From: Candidatus Altimarinota bacterium
Lineage (GTDB): Bacteria > Patescibacteriota > Gracilibacteria > BD1-5 > UBA6164
NCBI GenBank assembly: GCA_020631485.1
Contig: JAHDHC010000001.1
Span: 1-64,000 of the forward strand
Reading direction: 5' to 3'
Length of the DNA: 64,000 nt
In this document: positions 2,984-24,488 of the stretch, in pieces
Numbering within the stretch: the first letter of the stretch is position 1
How the letters are laid out: each line of letters starts with the position of its first letter
Program-made: the position numbers and the translations under genes
The notes under the pieces: model-generated
Told to the model about the DNA's origin: nothing
The model's input: only the letters and a program-made list of their open reading frames with translations
Database searches by the model: none

Positions 2984-3937
2984 ATGACACAGAATAATTT
3001 TTGAGAAGATGGTTGGACTCCTGGTGCTATTAGTTCACTTGTGTGAAAGACGTATCTTATAACTGGTGCAAATAGTGGAACTGGGTATGAAGCTTCAAAA
3101 ATACTTCTGAGCAAAGGAGCAAGAGTAGTTATGTTGAATCGTAACCCAGAAAAGTCAGAAGCTGCAATAGATAATCTAAAAGAAGAGCTTGGTGAAAATA
3201 TAGATCTACACTTTGTAAAAATAGACTTAGGCTCTCTTGAATCAATGAGAAATGCTGTTGAAGAAGTATAGGAAAAGATAGAGAGAATCGATGCGCTTAT
3301 CTGTAATGGAGCTATTGCTCAAGTTCCTAGGTAGAAACTTACGGTTGATGGATTTGAAAGTCAGTTAGGAGTAAATTATTATGGACACTTTTTATTACAA
3401 TCTTTGCTTTTTCCACTCATCAATAAATCTAAATGACGTATTGTAACAGTAGGAAGTATGGGATACGACATGGGAATTAAAACTATCAAATTTGATGACA
3501 TGAATTGGGATAAAGACTATACAGCAAACAAGGCTTATAGCCAAAGTAAGCTTGCCCAAATTATGTCAGTATATGAACTACAAGATAGACTGGAGAAATC
3601 ATGAAATACAAATGTAAAAGTATATGCTTGTCACCCAGGTTCATCAAGGACCTCACTTATCAAATCAAGTGGAAGTCCTGTTATGAGATTTATATTTTGG
3701 CTCATGACATTATCTCCACTCACTCAATCTGCTGAAAAAGGGGCTTATTCGCAAGTTATGTGCGCTGTTGAAGAAAACTTAGATCAAAAAGGTTTCTACG
3801 GACCAACCGGAAGGAATAATTGGGTGGGGCCAGTTTGAGCACATGAAATCAAACCTCATGCTAAAAATAAAGAAGTATCAAAGAGATTGTGGGATATATC
3901 TGAGAAAGAAACAAGTGCTACGTGGGATTTGCGATAA
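2984..3937 (+). pseudogene. Short-chain dehydrogenase/reductase with two in-frame UAG codons
   Basis: The frame encodes a full-length SDR of 317 codons: ITGANSGTGYEASK (Rossmann TGxxxGxG motif near residue 27), a VGSM segment with the catalytic Ser, and the YSQSK catalytic Tyr/Lys pair. It resembles retinol-dehydrogenase / protochlorophyllide-reductase-like SDRs. Two UAG codons interrupt it at 3269-3271 and 3332-3334, at positions normally Lys/Glu and Gln/Lys in relatives. The rest is intact with no frameshift. UAG is a true stop elsewhere in the window, so a recently broken gene is the simplest reading. Glycine here is mostly GGN rather than UGA, unlike neighbours, hinting at acquisition from a standard-code donor. 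Read-through cannot be excluded. Confidence 0.8.
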
Positions 3938-3991: not shown

Positions 3992-4019
3992 TTGACATAC
4001 TCAGATAAATTTATATATT
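3992..4019 (+). promoter_or_regulatory. Promoter of the argGH operon
   Basis: A near-consensus promoter: TTGACA at 3992-3997, 16-base spacer, TATATT at 4014-4019. Transcription would begin around 4026, giving a leader of about 180 bases before argG that contains the leader ORF and terminator described below. Confidence 0.65.
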
Positions 4020-4045
4020 AAGCATGTAATTAACAGCAGAAATTT

Positions 4046-4129
4046 ATGCAAAATTTACAATTCATTAGAAACAGGAGGACATTTTCAGATAAGAAAATGG
4101 TTTCTTTTGGTGTATGTAAAATATTTTAA
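4046..4129 (+). CDS. Putative arginine leader peptide of argGH
   Basis: A 27-codon ORF between the promoter and the argG terminator hairpin. Its product has Arg at positions 8, 10 and 11 (I-R-N-R-R-T), encoded AGA-AAC-AGG-AGG. A leader peptide with clustered codons for the pathway end product, followed by an intrinsic terminator before the first structural gene, is the arrangement of ribosome-mediated attenuators. No strong ribosome binding site precedes it, but few genes in this window have one. AGGAGG could instead be a Shine-Dalgarno sequence, though the next ATG is too far away. Confidence 0.5.
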   Translation: MQNLQFIRNRRTFSDKKMVSFGVCKIF

Positions 4130-4145
4130 ACTCTAGGTAAATCAT

Positions 4146-4191
4146 AAAAAGCTATTTTCTTATTTTTTGGAAAGTAGCTTTTTTAGTTTTT
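4146..4191 (+). terminator. Terminator-like hairpin (attenuator) before argG
   Basis: A 14-bp stem (4146-4159 with 4170-4183, one G-U pair) followed by a T-run ends 14 bases before the argG ATG. An alternative pairing of 4091-4098 with 4154-4161 (AAGAAAAT with ATTTTCTT, 8 bp) would break the terminator stem. The 4091-4098 segment would be free if a ribosome stalled on the Arg codons at 4067-4078 and hidden if it reached the stop at 4127. It cannot be a terminator of an upstream gene alone, because a promoter lies between. Confidence 0.6.
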
Positions 4192-4204
4192 TTAAATTTA
4201 TATT

Positions 4205-5449
4205 ATGGTTTACAAGAAAATAGCTTCACACGAAGCGAAAAAATGAGAATTTACAAAGTGTCTACTTTTATATTCAGGATGACTTGATACTTCTATGATG
4301 CTTAAATGGATACAGGATGAGTATGAATGTGAAGTTATAGCACTTACGATTGATATATGACAAACTGCTGATAATTTAGTTTCTATAAAAAATAAGGGAC
4401 TTGATTTATGAGCAAAAGATGTCATTGTGTATGGTGCTAAAGATGAATTCGCTGATAAATACCTCTCTATTGCAGTGAAAGCAAATGCAGATTATCAATG
4501 ATGATATGCACTTTCCACTCCTTTAGGAAGAATAATTATTTCTGAAATTGCTGTTAAAATAGCTGCTGAATATTGATGTGATGTTATTGCCCATGGATGT
4601 ACAGGGAAATGAAACGACCAAGTACGTTTTGAATCATATATTACAACCCTTAATCCTCGTTTAAAGACTATCGCTCCAGTGCGTGAATGGTCGATGTGAA
4701 GAGATGAGCAAATAGTATATGCAGAAAAACATTGAATTCCCGTGAAACAAAAAAAAGACACTCCATACTCTTATGATGAAAATATGTGGGGGAATACATG
4801 AGAGTGATGAGAAATAGAAAACCCAGAACTCATTCCTAAATTTCCAAATATTCTACAATGGTGTAATACTATTGAACAAACTCCAGGTGAATCAGAGGAA
4901 ATAGATATATACTTTAAGAAATGAATTGCTAAAAAAATTAATTGAAATTCAAAAAAACTTTCTGAGATAATTTCAGATTTAAATAAAATTTGAGCAAAAC
5001 ATGGAGTATGAGTTTTTCCGCTTATTGAAGATAGATTTGTATGATTAAAAGTTCGTTGAGTGTATGAAAATCCATGAGCATCTATTCTCATAGCAGCTCA
5101 TAAAAATTTAGAAAAACTCGTGTCAACAAGAGAAGAGAATGAGATAAAAGTATTTATGGATACAAAGTGGGCGTATCTAAAATACGCAGCTAAATGGTAC
5201 GACCCTGTGATGAAAAATATCATTTCATTTATTAATACTCAAAACGAGAAAGTTACGTGAAATGTGAGAATAAAGATTCTTAAATGAAATATTATTGTTG
5301 AATCTTTATCTTCTCAAAACTCTCTTTTTGATGAAAATCTCGCAACATTTAATAAAAGTATGGATTTTAATCAGAATTCAAGTGCTGGCTTTATAGAAAT
5401 CTATAATCTTGCTCAGAAGACAGCTTATAATATATGAACTAATAATTAA
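4205..5449 (+). CDS. argG: Argininosuccinate synthase
   Basis: This 414-residue enzyme joins citrulline and aspartate with ATP to make argininosuccinate in arginine synthesis. The ATP-binding PP-loop SGGLDTS is at residues 24-30, its second Gly written as UGA. GCTGKGNDQVRFE near residue 125 is the conserved substrate-binding motif of the family, and the length is normal. The start follows the leader terminator closely, with no Shine-Dalgarno. argH begins 9 bases after its stop, so the two form an operon completing arginine synthesis from citrulline or running as part of an arginine-aspartate cycle; no other arg biosynthesis gene is in the window. Confidence 0.95.
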
Positions 5450-5458
5450 AATAATACT

Positions 5459-6652
5459 ATGAAAAAAATTTGGCAAAAAAATAAAACACAAAATATTCAT
5501 GAAATTATAGAGAAATACACAGTGGGGAATGATAACATCCTTGATATAGAACTATTAGAATATGATATTAAGGCAACATTAGCACATGGAAAAATGCTAT
5601 ACAAGATTTGAATCTTAGATTCTAAAGAATTAAAGCATCTTGAATTATGACTAGCAGAATTACTAAAAAAACTAGAAAGTTGAGAGTTTACAATAGATAT
5701 ATCTCAAGAAGATGGGCATACTGCTATTGAATCATTTTTAACAGAAAATTATTGAGAAATTTGAAAAAAAATTCACACGGGTCGTTCGAGAAATGACCAA
5801 ATTCTTGTTACTATGAGACTTTATACACTCGATATGATTTCAAAAATTGAATCAAAAATTGATATACTTATAGGTAATTTAGAAAAAAAGAAACAAGAGA
5901 TAGGAGATACTAATATGCCATGATATACTCATACACAAAAAGCAATGCCTTCAAAAGTATGATGGTGGCTTTGAATGTATTCTGATTCTCTAAATGACAC
6001 GAAAATACTTCTAGATTCTGCAAAAGAAATTAATAATCAAAACCCACTATGAAGTGCCGCAGGTTATTGAGCTGTATGATTATGATTAGATAGAGACTTT
6101 ACAACAAACTTATTATGATTTGAAAAAGTTCAAGAAAATCCACTTTATTGCTGATACTCTAGATGAAAGTTTGAATATATAACATTACAAACTTTATCCC
6201 ATATAATGATAGATTTGTGAAAGATGGCGAATGAACTTGTATATTTTTCTTCAAGTGAGTTCAATTTTTTTACATTACCAGATTCATTCAAAACTGGCTC
6301 GTCAATAATGCCTCAAAAGAAGAACTGGGATATCATGGAACTCGTTCGTTGAAATACAAATTTATTTTTATGATATGAATTTCAAATTAGAGAAATATAC
6401 AAGATGTTATTTACTTGATATAATCGCGATTTTCAACTCACAAAAGAACCATATTTGAAATGAATAAAGCTCGTTCAAGATACTCTTGACGTAATGATAC
6501 TCGTAATACAAAATGTTTGAGTAAATGAAGATATTCTTAATAAATCTATGACTCCGGAACTATACGCAACAGAAGAAGCTTATAAACTCGTAAAAAACTG
6601 AATGAATTTTAGAGATGCATACAAAAAAGTGGGGAAAGAGTATGTCTCGTAA
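5459..6652 (+). CDS. argH: Argininosuccinate lyase
   Basis: The 397-residue product splits argininosuccinate into arginine and fumarate. It shows the fumarase/aspartase superfamily signature [10 protein letters not shown] (with W where the family usually has P next), the HTGRSRNDQ motif and [14 protein letters not shown] encodes several conserved glycines, including in YTHTQ upstream PG. It is slightly shorter than typical ArgH (about 450) because the C-terminal region is compact. Cotranscribed with argG. Confidence 0.95.
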
Positions 6653-10111: not shown

Positions 10112-11686
10112 ATGAATATCACTTCTGCAAAGGTAATACCAGGTTGTATTTCTTGTAAAAACTGTGAAAATATATGTCCGGAGGTTTTTAAAGTTGATCC
10201 AACTTCTCATGTTATCTCTGACAAGTTCAATCAAAATGCTCTCAAACTGCTGATGGCTGAAAAAATGTGTCCTGTAAATGTCATAAAAGTAGAAAAAGAA
10301 TGAGCCTATGAGCTCAACTATTCACAAGCAGAACTCATATCAAAAAAATACCTCACTCCAGATGTACTCGAACTGGTCTTTCAAACTGAAAAGTTTAGCT
10401 GTGTTCCAGGTCAATACATCTCACTTCAGATGAAAGATCTCAGAGGTGAGTTTTCGCGTTCTTACTCTATTGCAGCAGCGAGCAAAGATTCTTTTACTCT
10501 TACGGTTAAAATACTGGAGAAGTGAAGAGGTTCTGCATTTCTCAAAAAACTCTGAGACAGAAGCTGGAAGAATGTCTTCAGAAAAAAAACAACGCTTCAG
10601 TTCATATGAGCTCTGTGAGATTTTGTAGTGCAAGATACAGACAAAAGAAAGGTAATGATCGCAACAGGTACAGGGCTCGCACCTATGATGGCAATGCTCG
10701 AAAAAATCCCACAAGAGACCCAAAAACTCCTCATATTTTGAGTGCGTAAGGAAGAAGACCTGTTTTATCTTGAGAAGCTTGAGAAATATAAGAACTTAGA
10801 GTTGAGGCTTTGTATCTCGCGTCCTGATAAAAAAGATACTTCTCCATCACGTGTGACAGATCATTTAGCAGATATAGAGAAAGACGATGAGGTATATATC
10901 TGTGGAAATCCAGATATGGTGAGTGCCGTCAGAAAGATCTTGCAGGATGCTGGGCACGGTACAAAAAATATATTTCACGAGGATTTTACCCTTGCAAATC
11001 CTCCGATAGCTCTCTGGAAAAATATACTTTTCGAAGGAGAAGTTCCTGGAATAGAGATATTTCATAAGATACTTATATATCTTTGAGTATTTGGAGTTCC
11101 GGTATTTTATTTTCTTGGTTTGAGATACTGATTTTTAGGATATGAGATTTTTGGAAAAGATATCTATAGTATCTTGTTTCTTTTGACTTGGTATGCAGTA
11201 GTTTTCGTGATGTTTGTTCGCCCACTTGCAGATATATTTCCAAAACTTAAAATACTCCGTAGATTGGTTGTACTCAGGAAGTGATTTGGAATATTTTCAG
11301 CGTCAATTATCGTGACTATGCTCTTTGCAAAATGGATCCAAAACCCTTCAAGTTTTGCAGCTTTTTTCACCCTCCAAGCCTGGTCTCTAAGTCCAGATAT
11401 GATCTCGAGATTCTTCTCGACAAGAGACTGGTCTATGTTGCTGAGTCTCTGTTCGAGACTTTCAGAAATCACAGCTCTCATACTCTTAATTATTTCAAAT
11501 ACTTTCTCACAAAGGATTCTTGGTATCTGGTGGAAGCGTATCCAGAAAACGGCCTATATATATTTTTATGCTGGTCCAATCGTCGCACTTCAGTACTCAA
11601 ATAATCCACTTGAGTATTATATTCCTATGATTCTCCTTCCTATTATCTGGCTTCTTGCTCATTTTCGAGTGAAACTCTGGAAATAG
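10112..11686 (+). CDS. Ferredoxin-FNR reductase-membrane domain fusion
   Basis: One 524-residue ORF joins three modules. Residues 1-64 are a [4Fe-4S] ferredoxin (CISCKNCENICP and a later MCPVNVI). Residues about 70-290 are an FAD/NAD(P)H oxidoreductase: RSYSIAAAS is the flavin-binding motif, MIATGTGLAPM the NAD-binding loop, and YICGNPDMV the C-terminal motif. Residues about 325-524 have five to six membrane segments resembling ferric-reductase / MsrQ-type domains (RRLVVLRKGFGIF, WWKRIQKTAYIYF), but the haem-ligand histidines of that family are not present: His is replaced at both expected places. It may move electrons between NAD(P)H, an iron-sulfur centre and the membrane. The order Fd-FNR-TM in one chain is unusual. 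UGA codons occur in all three parts. Confidence 0.85.
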
Positions 11687-19017: not shown

Positions 19018-19050
19018 TTCTTTATAGTGTTAAGTTATAGTCTTTGTTTT

Positions 19051-19086
19051 TAAAAAAAAGCTTTTTCTGTTTTAAGAGAAAAAGCC
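19051..19086 (-). terminator. Terminator-like hairpin in the rplJ leader
   Basis: Reading on the minus strand, GGCTTTTTCT pairs with AGAAAAAGCT (10 bp, one G-U) and is followed by eight T. It ends 33 bases before the rplJ ATG and lies downstream of the promoter at 19177-19203, so it probably controls read-through into rplJ-rplL. Confidence 0.6.
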
Positions 19087-19099
19087 TTTGAGTTTTTAA

Positions 19100-19165
19100 A
19101 TCATTGTTCTTTTTCATCTCGGTAGGTCTTATTTAGATTTTCATCTGCCTACGGTCTACGATAAA
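19100..19165 (-). promoter_or_regulatory. Putative ribosomal protein L10 leader RNA
   Basis: The minus-strand leader contains GTAGGCAGATG and AAATAAGACCTACCGAGATG, close to the CCUGCCGAGGU-type block that binds the L10(L12)4 complex in known L10 leaders. GTAGG and CCTAC can pair as the closing stem. Autogenous control of rplJL is likely. The assignment is by motif only. Confidence 0.55.
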
Positions 19166-19176
19166 ATAGTACAGGT

Positions 19177-19203
19177 ATTATATTGATATTTTTTATAAGT
19201 CAA
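19177..19203 (-). promoter_or_regulatory. Promoter of rplJ-rplL
   Basis: On the minus strand TTGACT (19198-19203) and TATAAT (19177-19182) with a 15-base spacer; transcription would start near 19170, just before the L10 leader. Confidence 0.6.
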
Positions 19204-23626: not shown

Positions 23627-23649
23627 AAAAGAGCCTTTATTGCTCTTTT
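23625..23649. terminator. Bidirectional terminator between convergent genes
   Basis: AAAAAAGAGC and GCTCTTTT pair around a 7-base loop; it overlaps the stop codons of the plus-strand hypothetical gene and of mscS. Confidence 0.7.
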
Positions 23650-24488
23650 GATTCATTTTCATTAATAACATGTACTTCTCTTTGTGGAAATGGGAAGTTG
23701 ATTCACTCTTTATCAAATCTGAGCTTCACTTTTTCTGTGACATCATACCATGTTGCCCAGTACTGTTCGGTATCTACGTAAAACCTAAAAGCAATAATCA
23801 CAGCATTGTCTCATAAGGTTTTTACTCCACTCAAGACATCTTTTGTGCTATCGATTCGTGAATCTTCTTTCGCTATTTCTTGGAGTATTTCTTGCGCTTT
23901 TTTGATATCATCACTGTAACTAATCCCGATTTCCATATCTACTCTTCTCTGAGTTTGCTCACTAAAGTTTATGAGGGCAGAAGAGGTAATCTGAGAGTTT
24001 GGTACCACGATGGTTTTTTTGTCTGGAGTGAGCATAATTGTGTTAAATATCTGTATGCTGTCTACTGTTCCTCCGAGATTATCTAGTTCTACATAGTCTC
24101 AGATTTTAAAAGGTTTAAACATGACGATTATTAGACCACTTGCAAAGTTTTGAAGGGTTCCTGAAAGTGCCATCCCGATAGCAAAACCAGCAGCTGCAAT
24201 CATTGCGACAAAACTGTCAGTTTTTACTCATAAGACCCCAGCAGCACTTATAAAAATCATGATTTTTAGGAGTCCTCCTACAAGGCTTGATATAAAACTC
24301 TCAATCATAGGATCATAGTCTCGCATATCCATAAGCTTTTTGAATGCCTTTTGCATATATCATACGATCTTGAATCCTATAAATATCGTCAGGATAGCAA
24401 GAATTATTTTTGTTCCCCACTCTACGATATATGGAATAATCACATCCATACTTATAGAGTATTGTGATAAAATTTCTTGAATATTCAT
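23637..24488 (-). CDS. mscS: Small-conductance mechanosensitive channel MscS
   Basis: A 283-residue MscS-type channel: three N-terminal membrane helices, the third being the glycine/alanine-rich pore helix (AMIAAAGFAIGMALSGTLQN) followed by FASGLIIVMFKPFKIGDYVE, and a cytoplasmic beta domain (TPDKKTIVVPNSQI). It opens under membrane tension and releases solutes during osmotic downshock. Length is normal for the family. Confidence 0.93.

Follow-up and report, generated by a model that had tools for sequence, protein, structure and literature searches.

The argG-argH operon of an uncultured Gracilibacterium with genetic code 25 (TGA=Gly) is very probably controlled by a ribosome-mediated transcription attenuator sensing charged tRNA-Arg; the Arg leader and its terminator would most likely switch arginine synthesis on when arginine is short. 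The window, that is, the whole 64,000-nucleotide stretch of DNA analyzed in this study, contains a promoter, a short leader ORF and an intrinsic terminator in front of the biosynthetic operon, with end-product codons enriched and conserved in the ORF, an antiterminator competing for the 5' arm of the terminator, and a fitting placement of the control codons. All these parts, their conservation and their register come from the sequence, from which we infer the ribosome pause and the termination. The main elements are as follows.

3992-4019, + strand: sigma-70-type promoter TTGACA-16-TATATT, 11 of 12 consensus positions
4046-4129, + strand: leader ORF of 27 codons, MQNLQFIRNRRTFSDKKMVSFGVCKIF, with equivalents before argG in many relatives
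4067-4078, + strand: Arg control codons AGA AAC AGG AGG (codons 8-11); 35 leaders conserve the Arg run at the amino acid level but not in its bases
4072-4109, + strand: predicted 1:2 protector hairpin, 4072-4086 with 4093-4109, -12.1 kcal/mol, z = -2.9
4087-4103, + strand: segment 2, 5' half of the predicted antiterminator, beginning 8 nt past the last Arg codon
4146-4198, + strand: intrinsic terminator, 15-bp stem at 4146-4183 (-15.7 kcal/mol) plus T run
4149-4165, + strand: segment 3, partner of segment 2 (antiterminator) or of the terminator 3' arm
4205-5449, + strand: argG, argininosuccinate synthase, with 23 TGA codons read as Gly (TIGR00032, 6e-125, above cut-off)
5459-6652, + strand: argH, argininosuccinate lyase, code 25 (TIGR00838, 1.4e-92, above cut-off)

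Full-length reading frames of argG and argH are obtained only with TGA=Gly, and the family models then confirm both. The leader is preceded on the same strand by a short-chain-dehydrogenase-like gene ending at 3937. Despite the presence of argG and argH, the ornithine/aspartate carbamoyltransferase domain PF02729 has no match in the window's own genome (G000, about 93% complete), and either citrulline comes from another source or the carbamoyltransferase gene lies within the missing 7%. Elsewhere in this code-25 genome, the Rfam L10 leader RF00557 scores slightly above the gathering score at window positions 19045-19179 on the - strand.

The promoter has the top score within 5 kb. The sequence-only reading had described a consensus promoter followed by a 27-codon ORF with Arg at codons 8, 10, and 11, and both were borne out; the reading of the ORF is unchanged under code 25. 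No Shine-Dalgarno sequence was seen before the leader ATG in the window. On both strands of the 64-kb window, only one other ORF with three Arg in five codons precedes a terminator, and it is weak. A short Leu-rich ORF, MLGLLLLGFT, is located at 23806 on the - strand with a terminator following at 23648, an arrangement that may be due to chance. The Arg run of the window (R-N-R-R) is itself weaker than RRR or RRRR and belongs to the weaker ones; the strength of the window case lies in its 17-bp antiterminator and in its relatives, not in its own Arg run.

The Arg leader is not peculiar to the window genome. GTDB contigs and whole genomes, mostly metagenome assemblies, supplied the ArgG relatives, and many Patescibacteria were found to have a short ORF with a run of two to four Arg codons, and then a terminator, before argG or argF-argG. 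A fixed scan (ATG start, at most 40 codons, at least three Arg in five codons, terminator within 130 nt) picked out 27 of the 99 distinct argG upstream regions, whereas dinucleotide shuffles of the same regions gave a mean of 0.075 positives and a maximum of 1. With any other amino acid, the scan found at most five positives in the 99 regions, the top being Lys with five. These numbers bear on a rival explanation, namely that the terminator only ends the upstream short-chain-dehydrogenase-like gene and the small ORF arose by chance. Short ORFs are indeed common in AT-rich DNA and the upstream gene is on the same strand; still, the terminator lies 209 nt beyond the end of that gene and downstream of a near-consensus promoter, and the order of promoter, Arg ORF, and terminator is kept in relatives with unrelated upstream genes. 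The conservation of the leaders refutes a chance ORF, and we consider this explanation highly unlikely.

In the nearest relatives with a leader (ArgG 82% and 74-79% identical), the peptides are MLNNISIIRRRRLVRNSH (L012) and MTNLFTTSLRRRPFSKGKWLLLLCK (L003), each with a terminator and a competing pairing 3' of it. Other leader peptides are MNIWNLVSQLRRRRL (L021), MTTTHNVIRRRRSLAEG (L055), MDYTKLYLHARRRRYRCAG (L013), MKNLNFVFTNRRRP (L032), MIKGLFPRRI (L038), and MFILNSRRRRFKRQKFRR (L111); in distant Patescibacteria the peptides differ, with the Arg run at the same place. Of the 35 homologous loci, 20 have a perfect TTGACA ahead of the leader. The Arg codons are AGA or AGG in the AT-rich code-25 genomes and CGN (CGT, CGC, CGG, or CGA) elsewhere; thus it is the meaning of the codons that is kept, not their bases, and selection probably acts on this meaning. 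Conservation of the Arg codons in relatives had been proposed as a check, and it was found; the outcome named in advance as refuting, close relatives keeping the terminator with the Arg codons unconserved, did not occur. The same codons dispose of the idea that AGGAGG, a perfect Shine-Dalgarno core, belongs to a small gene with ATG 4097 as its start, its resemblance to a pair of Arg codons being fortuitous: most homologous leaders use CGN at the homologous position, which makes no Shine-Dalgarno sequence and refutes this explanation, the distance from AGGAGG to ATG 4097 is 18 nt, and this ATG is an internal codon of the leader in the same frame. Of all the explanations considered, this one is the least probable.

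The structural part of the sequence-only reading required more correction. A terminator is present and its T run ends about 14 nt before argG, as had been noted, but its stem has 15 rather than 14 pairs. The alternative pairing of 4091-4098 with 4154-4161 also exists, not as an 8-bp helix but as the central part of a 17-bp duplex formed by segments 2 and 3 (4087-4103/4149-4165; -16.8 kcal/mol, z = -5.7), whose stability is comparable to that of the terminator stem. The 1:2 hairpin has its 5' end inside the Arg codons and competes with this duplex; across the 35 loci, the combined P for the protector pairing is 2e-10.

The whole leader region folds more stably than 200 of 200 shuffles (z = -3.3), as might also be expected if an RNA-binding protein or a small-molecule riboswitch controlled the leader and the ORF were incidental. 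However, an Rfam search of the window leader gave no family at the gathering score, with weak matches at chance level, and what is conserved between loci is the Arg run and the complementarity rather than the hairpin bases, so that such control is very improbable. This reading was rejected, as were those invoking an upstream-gene terminator or a Shine-Dalgarno sequence.

The competing pairing is kept across relatives while its bases change; covariation of 4091-4098/4154-4161 had been suggested as a check. The 35 leaders were chosen by eye from the upstream regions for an Arg run and a terminator, not for 2:3 pairing. In this set, the sequence 3' of the Arg run pairs with the terminator 5' arm better than do the leaders' own shuffles (mean z -2.9; P < 0.05 in 21 of 35 leaders), with a combined Fisher P of 1.4e-23 that overstates independence, L058, L059, and L102 being close kin. 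Segment 2 starts 0-13 nt past the Arg run in 30 of the 35 leaders. By this pairing method, several leaders (L016, L017, L023, L032, and L108) have no good antiterminator.

The register of these elements was modeled by moving a ribosome footprint codon by codon along a transcript ending before the terminator 3' arm. Sequestration of segment 3 by upstream RNA had a mean probability of 0.72 for a ribosome placed on the Arg run, 0.18 for one on the stop codon, and 0.55 when no ribosome was included; it was more than 0.2 higher at the Arg run than at the stop codon in 28 loci and lower in none, and in most loci the fall comes no more than a few codons from the run. In most loci of this simulation, the antiterminator forms when the ribosome stalls at the Arg run and is lost when it sits at the stop codon. 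The corresponding values for the window are 0.88, 0.00, and 0.88. Since the antiterminator forms in this model without a ribosome (0.88), an untranslated window leader might be read through. Equilibrium folding of the window leader with the full terminator does not discriminate between the two states, the completed terminator being so stable that it wins even with a stalled ribosome, whereas folding of the unfinished transcript does. The switch must therefore be kinetic and decided during transcription, and in known attenuators the decision is likewise made during transcription.

We suggest the following sequence of events. RNA polymerase would start at about 4025, and a ribosome would begin the leader ORF. 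When charged tRNA-Arg is low, the ribosome would wait at AGA/AGG/AGG and cover segment 1; segment 2 (4087-4103) would then be available to segment 3 (4149-4165) while the terminator 3' arm is still unmade, and with the antiterminator formed, transcription would continue into argG-argH. When arginine is sufficient, the ribosome would move on, segment 2 would be covered or taken up by segment 1, and formation of the terminator (4146-4183) would end transcription before argG. The conserved Arg run, terminator, and competing pairing in relatives thus support the original suggestion of ribosome-mediated attenuation, as far as comparative sequence data can.

The leaders are clustered on the ArgG tree. 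With 86 rows in the tree, 14 changes suffice to explain the attenuator label, versus 27 for shuffled labels, the former including about one change due to the near-copy L061 having been labeled 'other' by mistake; therefore the attenuator follows the tree in clusters, yet was gained or lost repeatedly. In the window's nearest clade of four, three members have the leader, and L004 has neither leader nor terminator upstream of argG. The ArgG proteins of Francisella (L033, L035, L047) and Calditrichota (L025, L028, L034) fall inside the Patescibacteria ArgG clade, and no Arg leader was found upstream of argG in these six loci; probably, these genes were transferred horizontally without the attenuator.

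Additional candidate targets of the same type of control were identified. Arg leaders also occur before argF where it is the first gene of the operon (L006, L037, L093), and the L003 genome has the order leader-argG-argF-argH. A leader scan of 12 argF loci gave nothing beyond the known L003 leader and one weak match; most stand-alone argF genes are therefore outside Arg-leader control. In L020 (- strand, about 11042-11119), an Arg leader, MKNIQTITIRRRRNSRFYLRLFVSV, and a terminator precede two GNAT genes, the first of which resembles N-acetylglutamate synthase, with a score below the family cut-off. In L018, L026, and L041, the leader stands before a small gene adjoining argG, which is a GNAT gene in L026. 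Two Arg leaders in series, each with its own terminator, precede argF-argG or argG in L006, L108, L111, and L045, and are predicted to be tandem attenuators. Between argF and argG of L110 (G637), an ORF ending in QFRRPRRMHFVI lies directly before argG without a terminator, and may represent the same control exerted at translation.

In two Uhrbacteria loci (L014:4637-4920 and L040:4583-4919), a T-box (RF00230) precedes argG in place of the leader peptide; the matches have E-values of 1e-15 and 1e-9, below the Rfam gathering score, and CGC (Arg) is at the expected specifier position. A similar T-box look was noticed by eye in L046, L073, and L080. The window leader has no match to RF00230 even at E up to 10. 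Sensing of tRNA-Arg at argG thus appears to recur through another device. These T-boxes, pointing to tRNA as the signal, also bear on the possibility of nascent-peptide arrest, in which the leader peptide inside the ribosome would itself bind a ligand, arginine or another, in the way SpeFL does with ornithine. There is a precedent in the Salmonella speF leader, where orf34, with two consecutive Arg codons, controls the downstream gene (PMC6386406); the present leader peptides, however, share no residue or spacing beyond the Arg run, unlike an arrest peptide, and we regard arrest as improbable.

The arginine repressor ArgR (TIGR01529) was not found in 39 genomes (G000 and 38 relatives), the control being positive in nine of 14 genomes. 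We lean slightly toward the view that Arg-codon attenuation is a general control of arginine biosynthesis replacing ArgR across Patescibacteria (Gracilibacteria, Absconditabacteria/SR1, Peregrinibacteria, Magasanikbacteria, Moranbacteria, Kerfeldbacteria, and Saccharibacteria), which acts on argG, argF, and acetyltransferase genes, sometimes with two attenuators in series, and is swapped with Arg T-boxes in some lineages. Tiny host-dependent cells without a detectable arginine repressor would still couple arginine synthesis to supply, and the leader offers a testable sensor for the response of such cells to host-provided supplies. The repeated use of one design with different bases makes these loci well suited as a natural test set for studying how attenuators evolve.

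The open-access literature yielded no earlier leader-peptide attenuation of arginine biosynthesis in any bacterium, in line with the original remark that arginine-codon attenuation of argG is no textbook case, and no leader-peptide attenuator in the Candidate Phyla Radiation; a description in a subscription journal is possible. The leaders reported for Streptomyces lividans (PMC8079986) and C. diphtheriae (PMC5784534) include none for arginine. As no earlier description was found, we consider as new both the phylum and arginine as the amino acid sensed to control its own synthesis.

Among described bacterial systems with Arg codons, the one that comes nearest is orf34/SpeFL of the Salmonella speF leader, which is likewise a short upstream ORF with consecutive Arg codons where ribosome pausing alters the mRNA fold, but has a conserved peptide, controls ornithine decarboxylase by way of Rho, RNase G, and access to the ribosome-binding site, and involves no intrinsic terminator of an arginine biosynthesis operon (PMC6386406). 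T-boxes with an Arg specifier also read tRNA-Arg charging upstream of argG, for example in Uhrbacteria, but bind the tRNA directly without a leader peptide, and the window lacks T-box features. In fungi, the arginine attenuator peptide of arg-2/CPA1 provides arginine control by an upstream ORF; it differs in being a conserved peptide causing eukaryotic translational arrest by excess arginine, without a transcription terminator. Leader-peptide attenuation is textbook knowledge for Trp, His, Thr, and the branched-chain amino acids. With the trp, his, thr, ilv, leu, and phe attenuators, the window system shares a leader ORF rich in the product amino acid, the 1:2, 2:3, and 3:4 hairpins, and an intrinsic terminator before the first gene; the differences are the amino acid (arginine), the genes (argG, argH, and argF), and the phylum (Patescibacteria, including code-25 genomes). 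Further, the window stop codon lies beyond segment 2, and therefore the 1:2 hairpin, not a ribosome at the stop codon, must be the protector. With all features accessible to sequence analysis present, the predicted device works like a trp-, his-, or leu-type attenuator.
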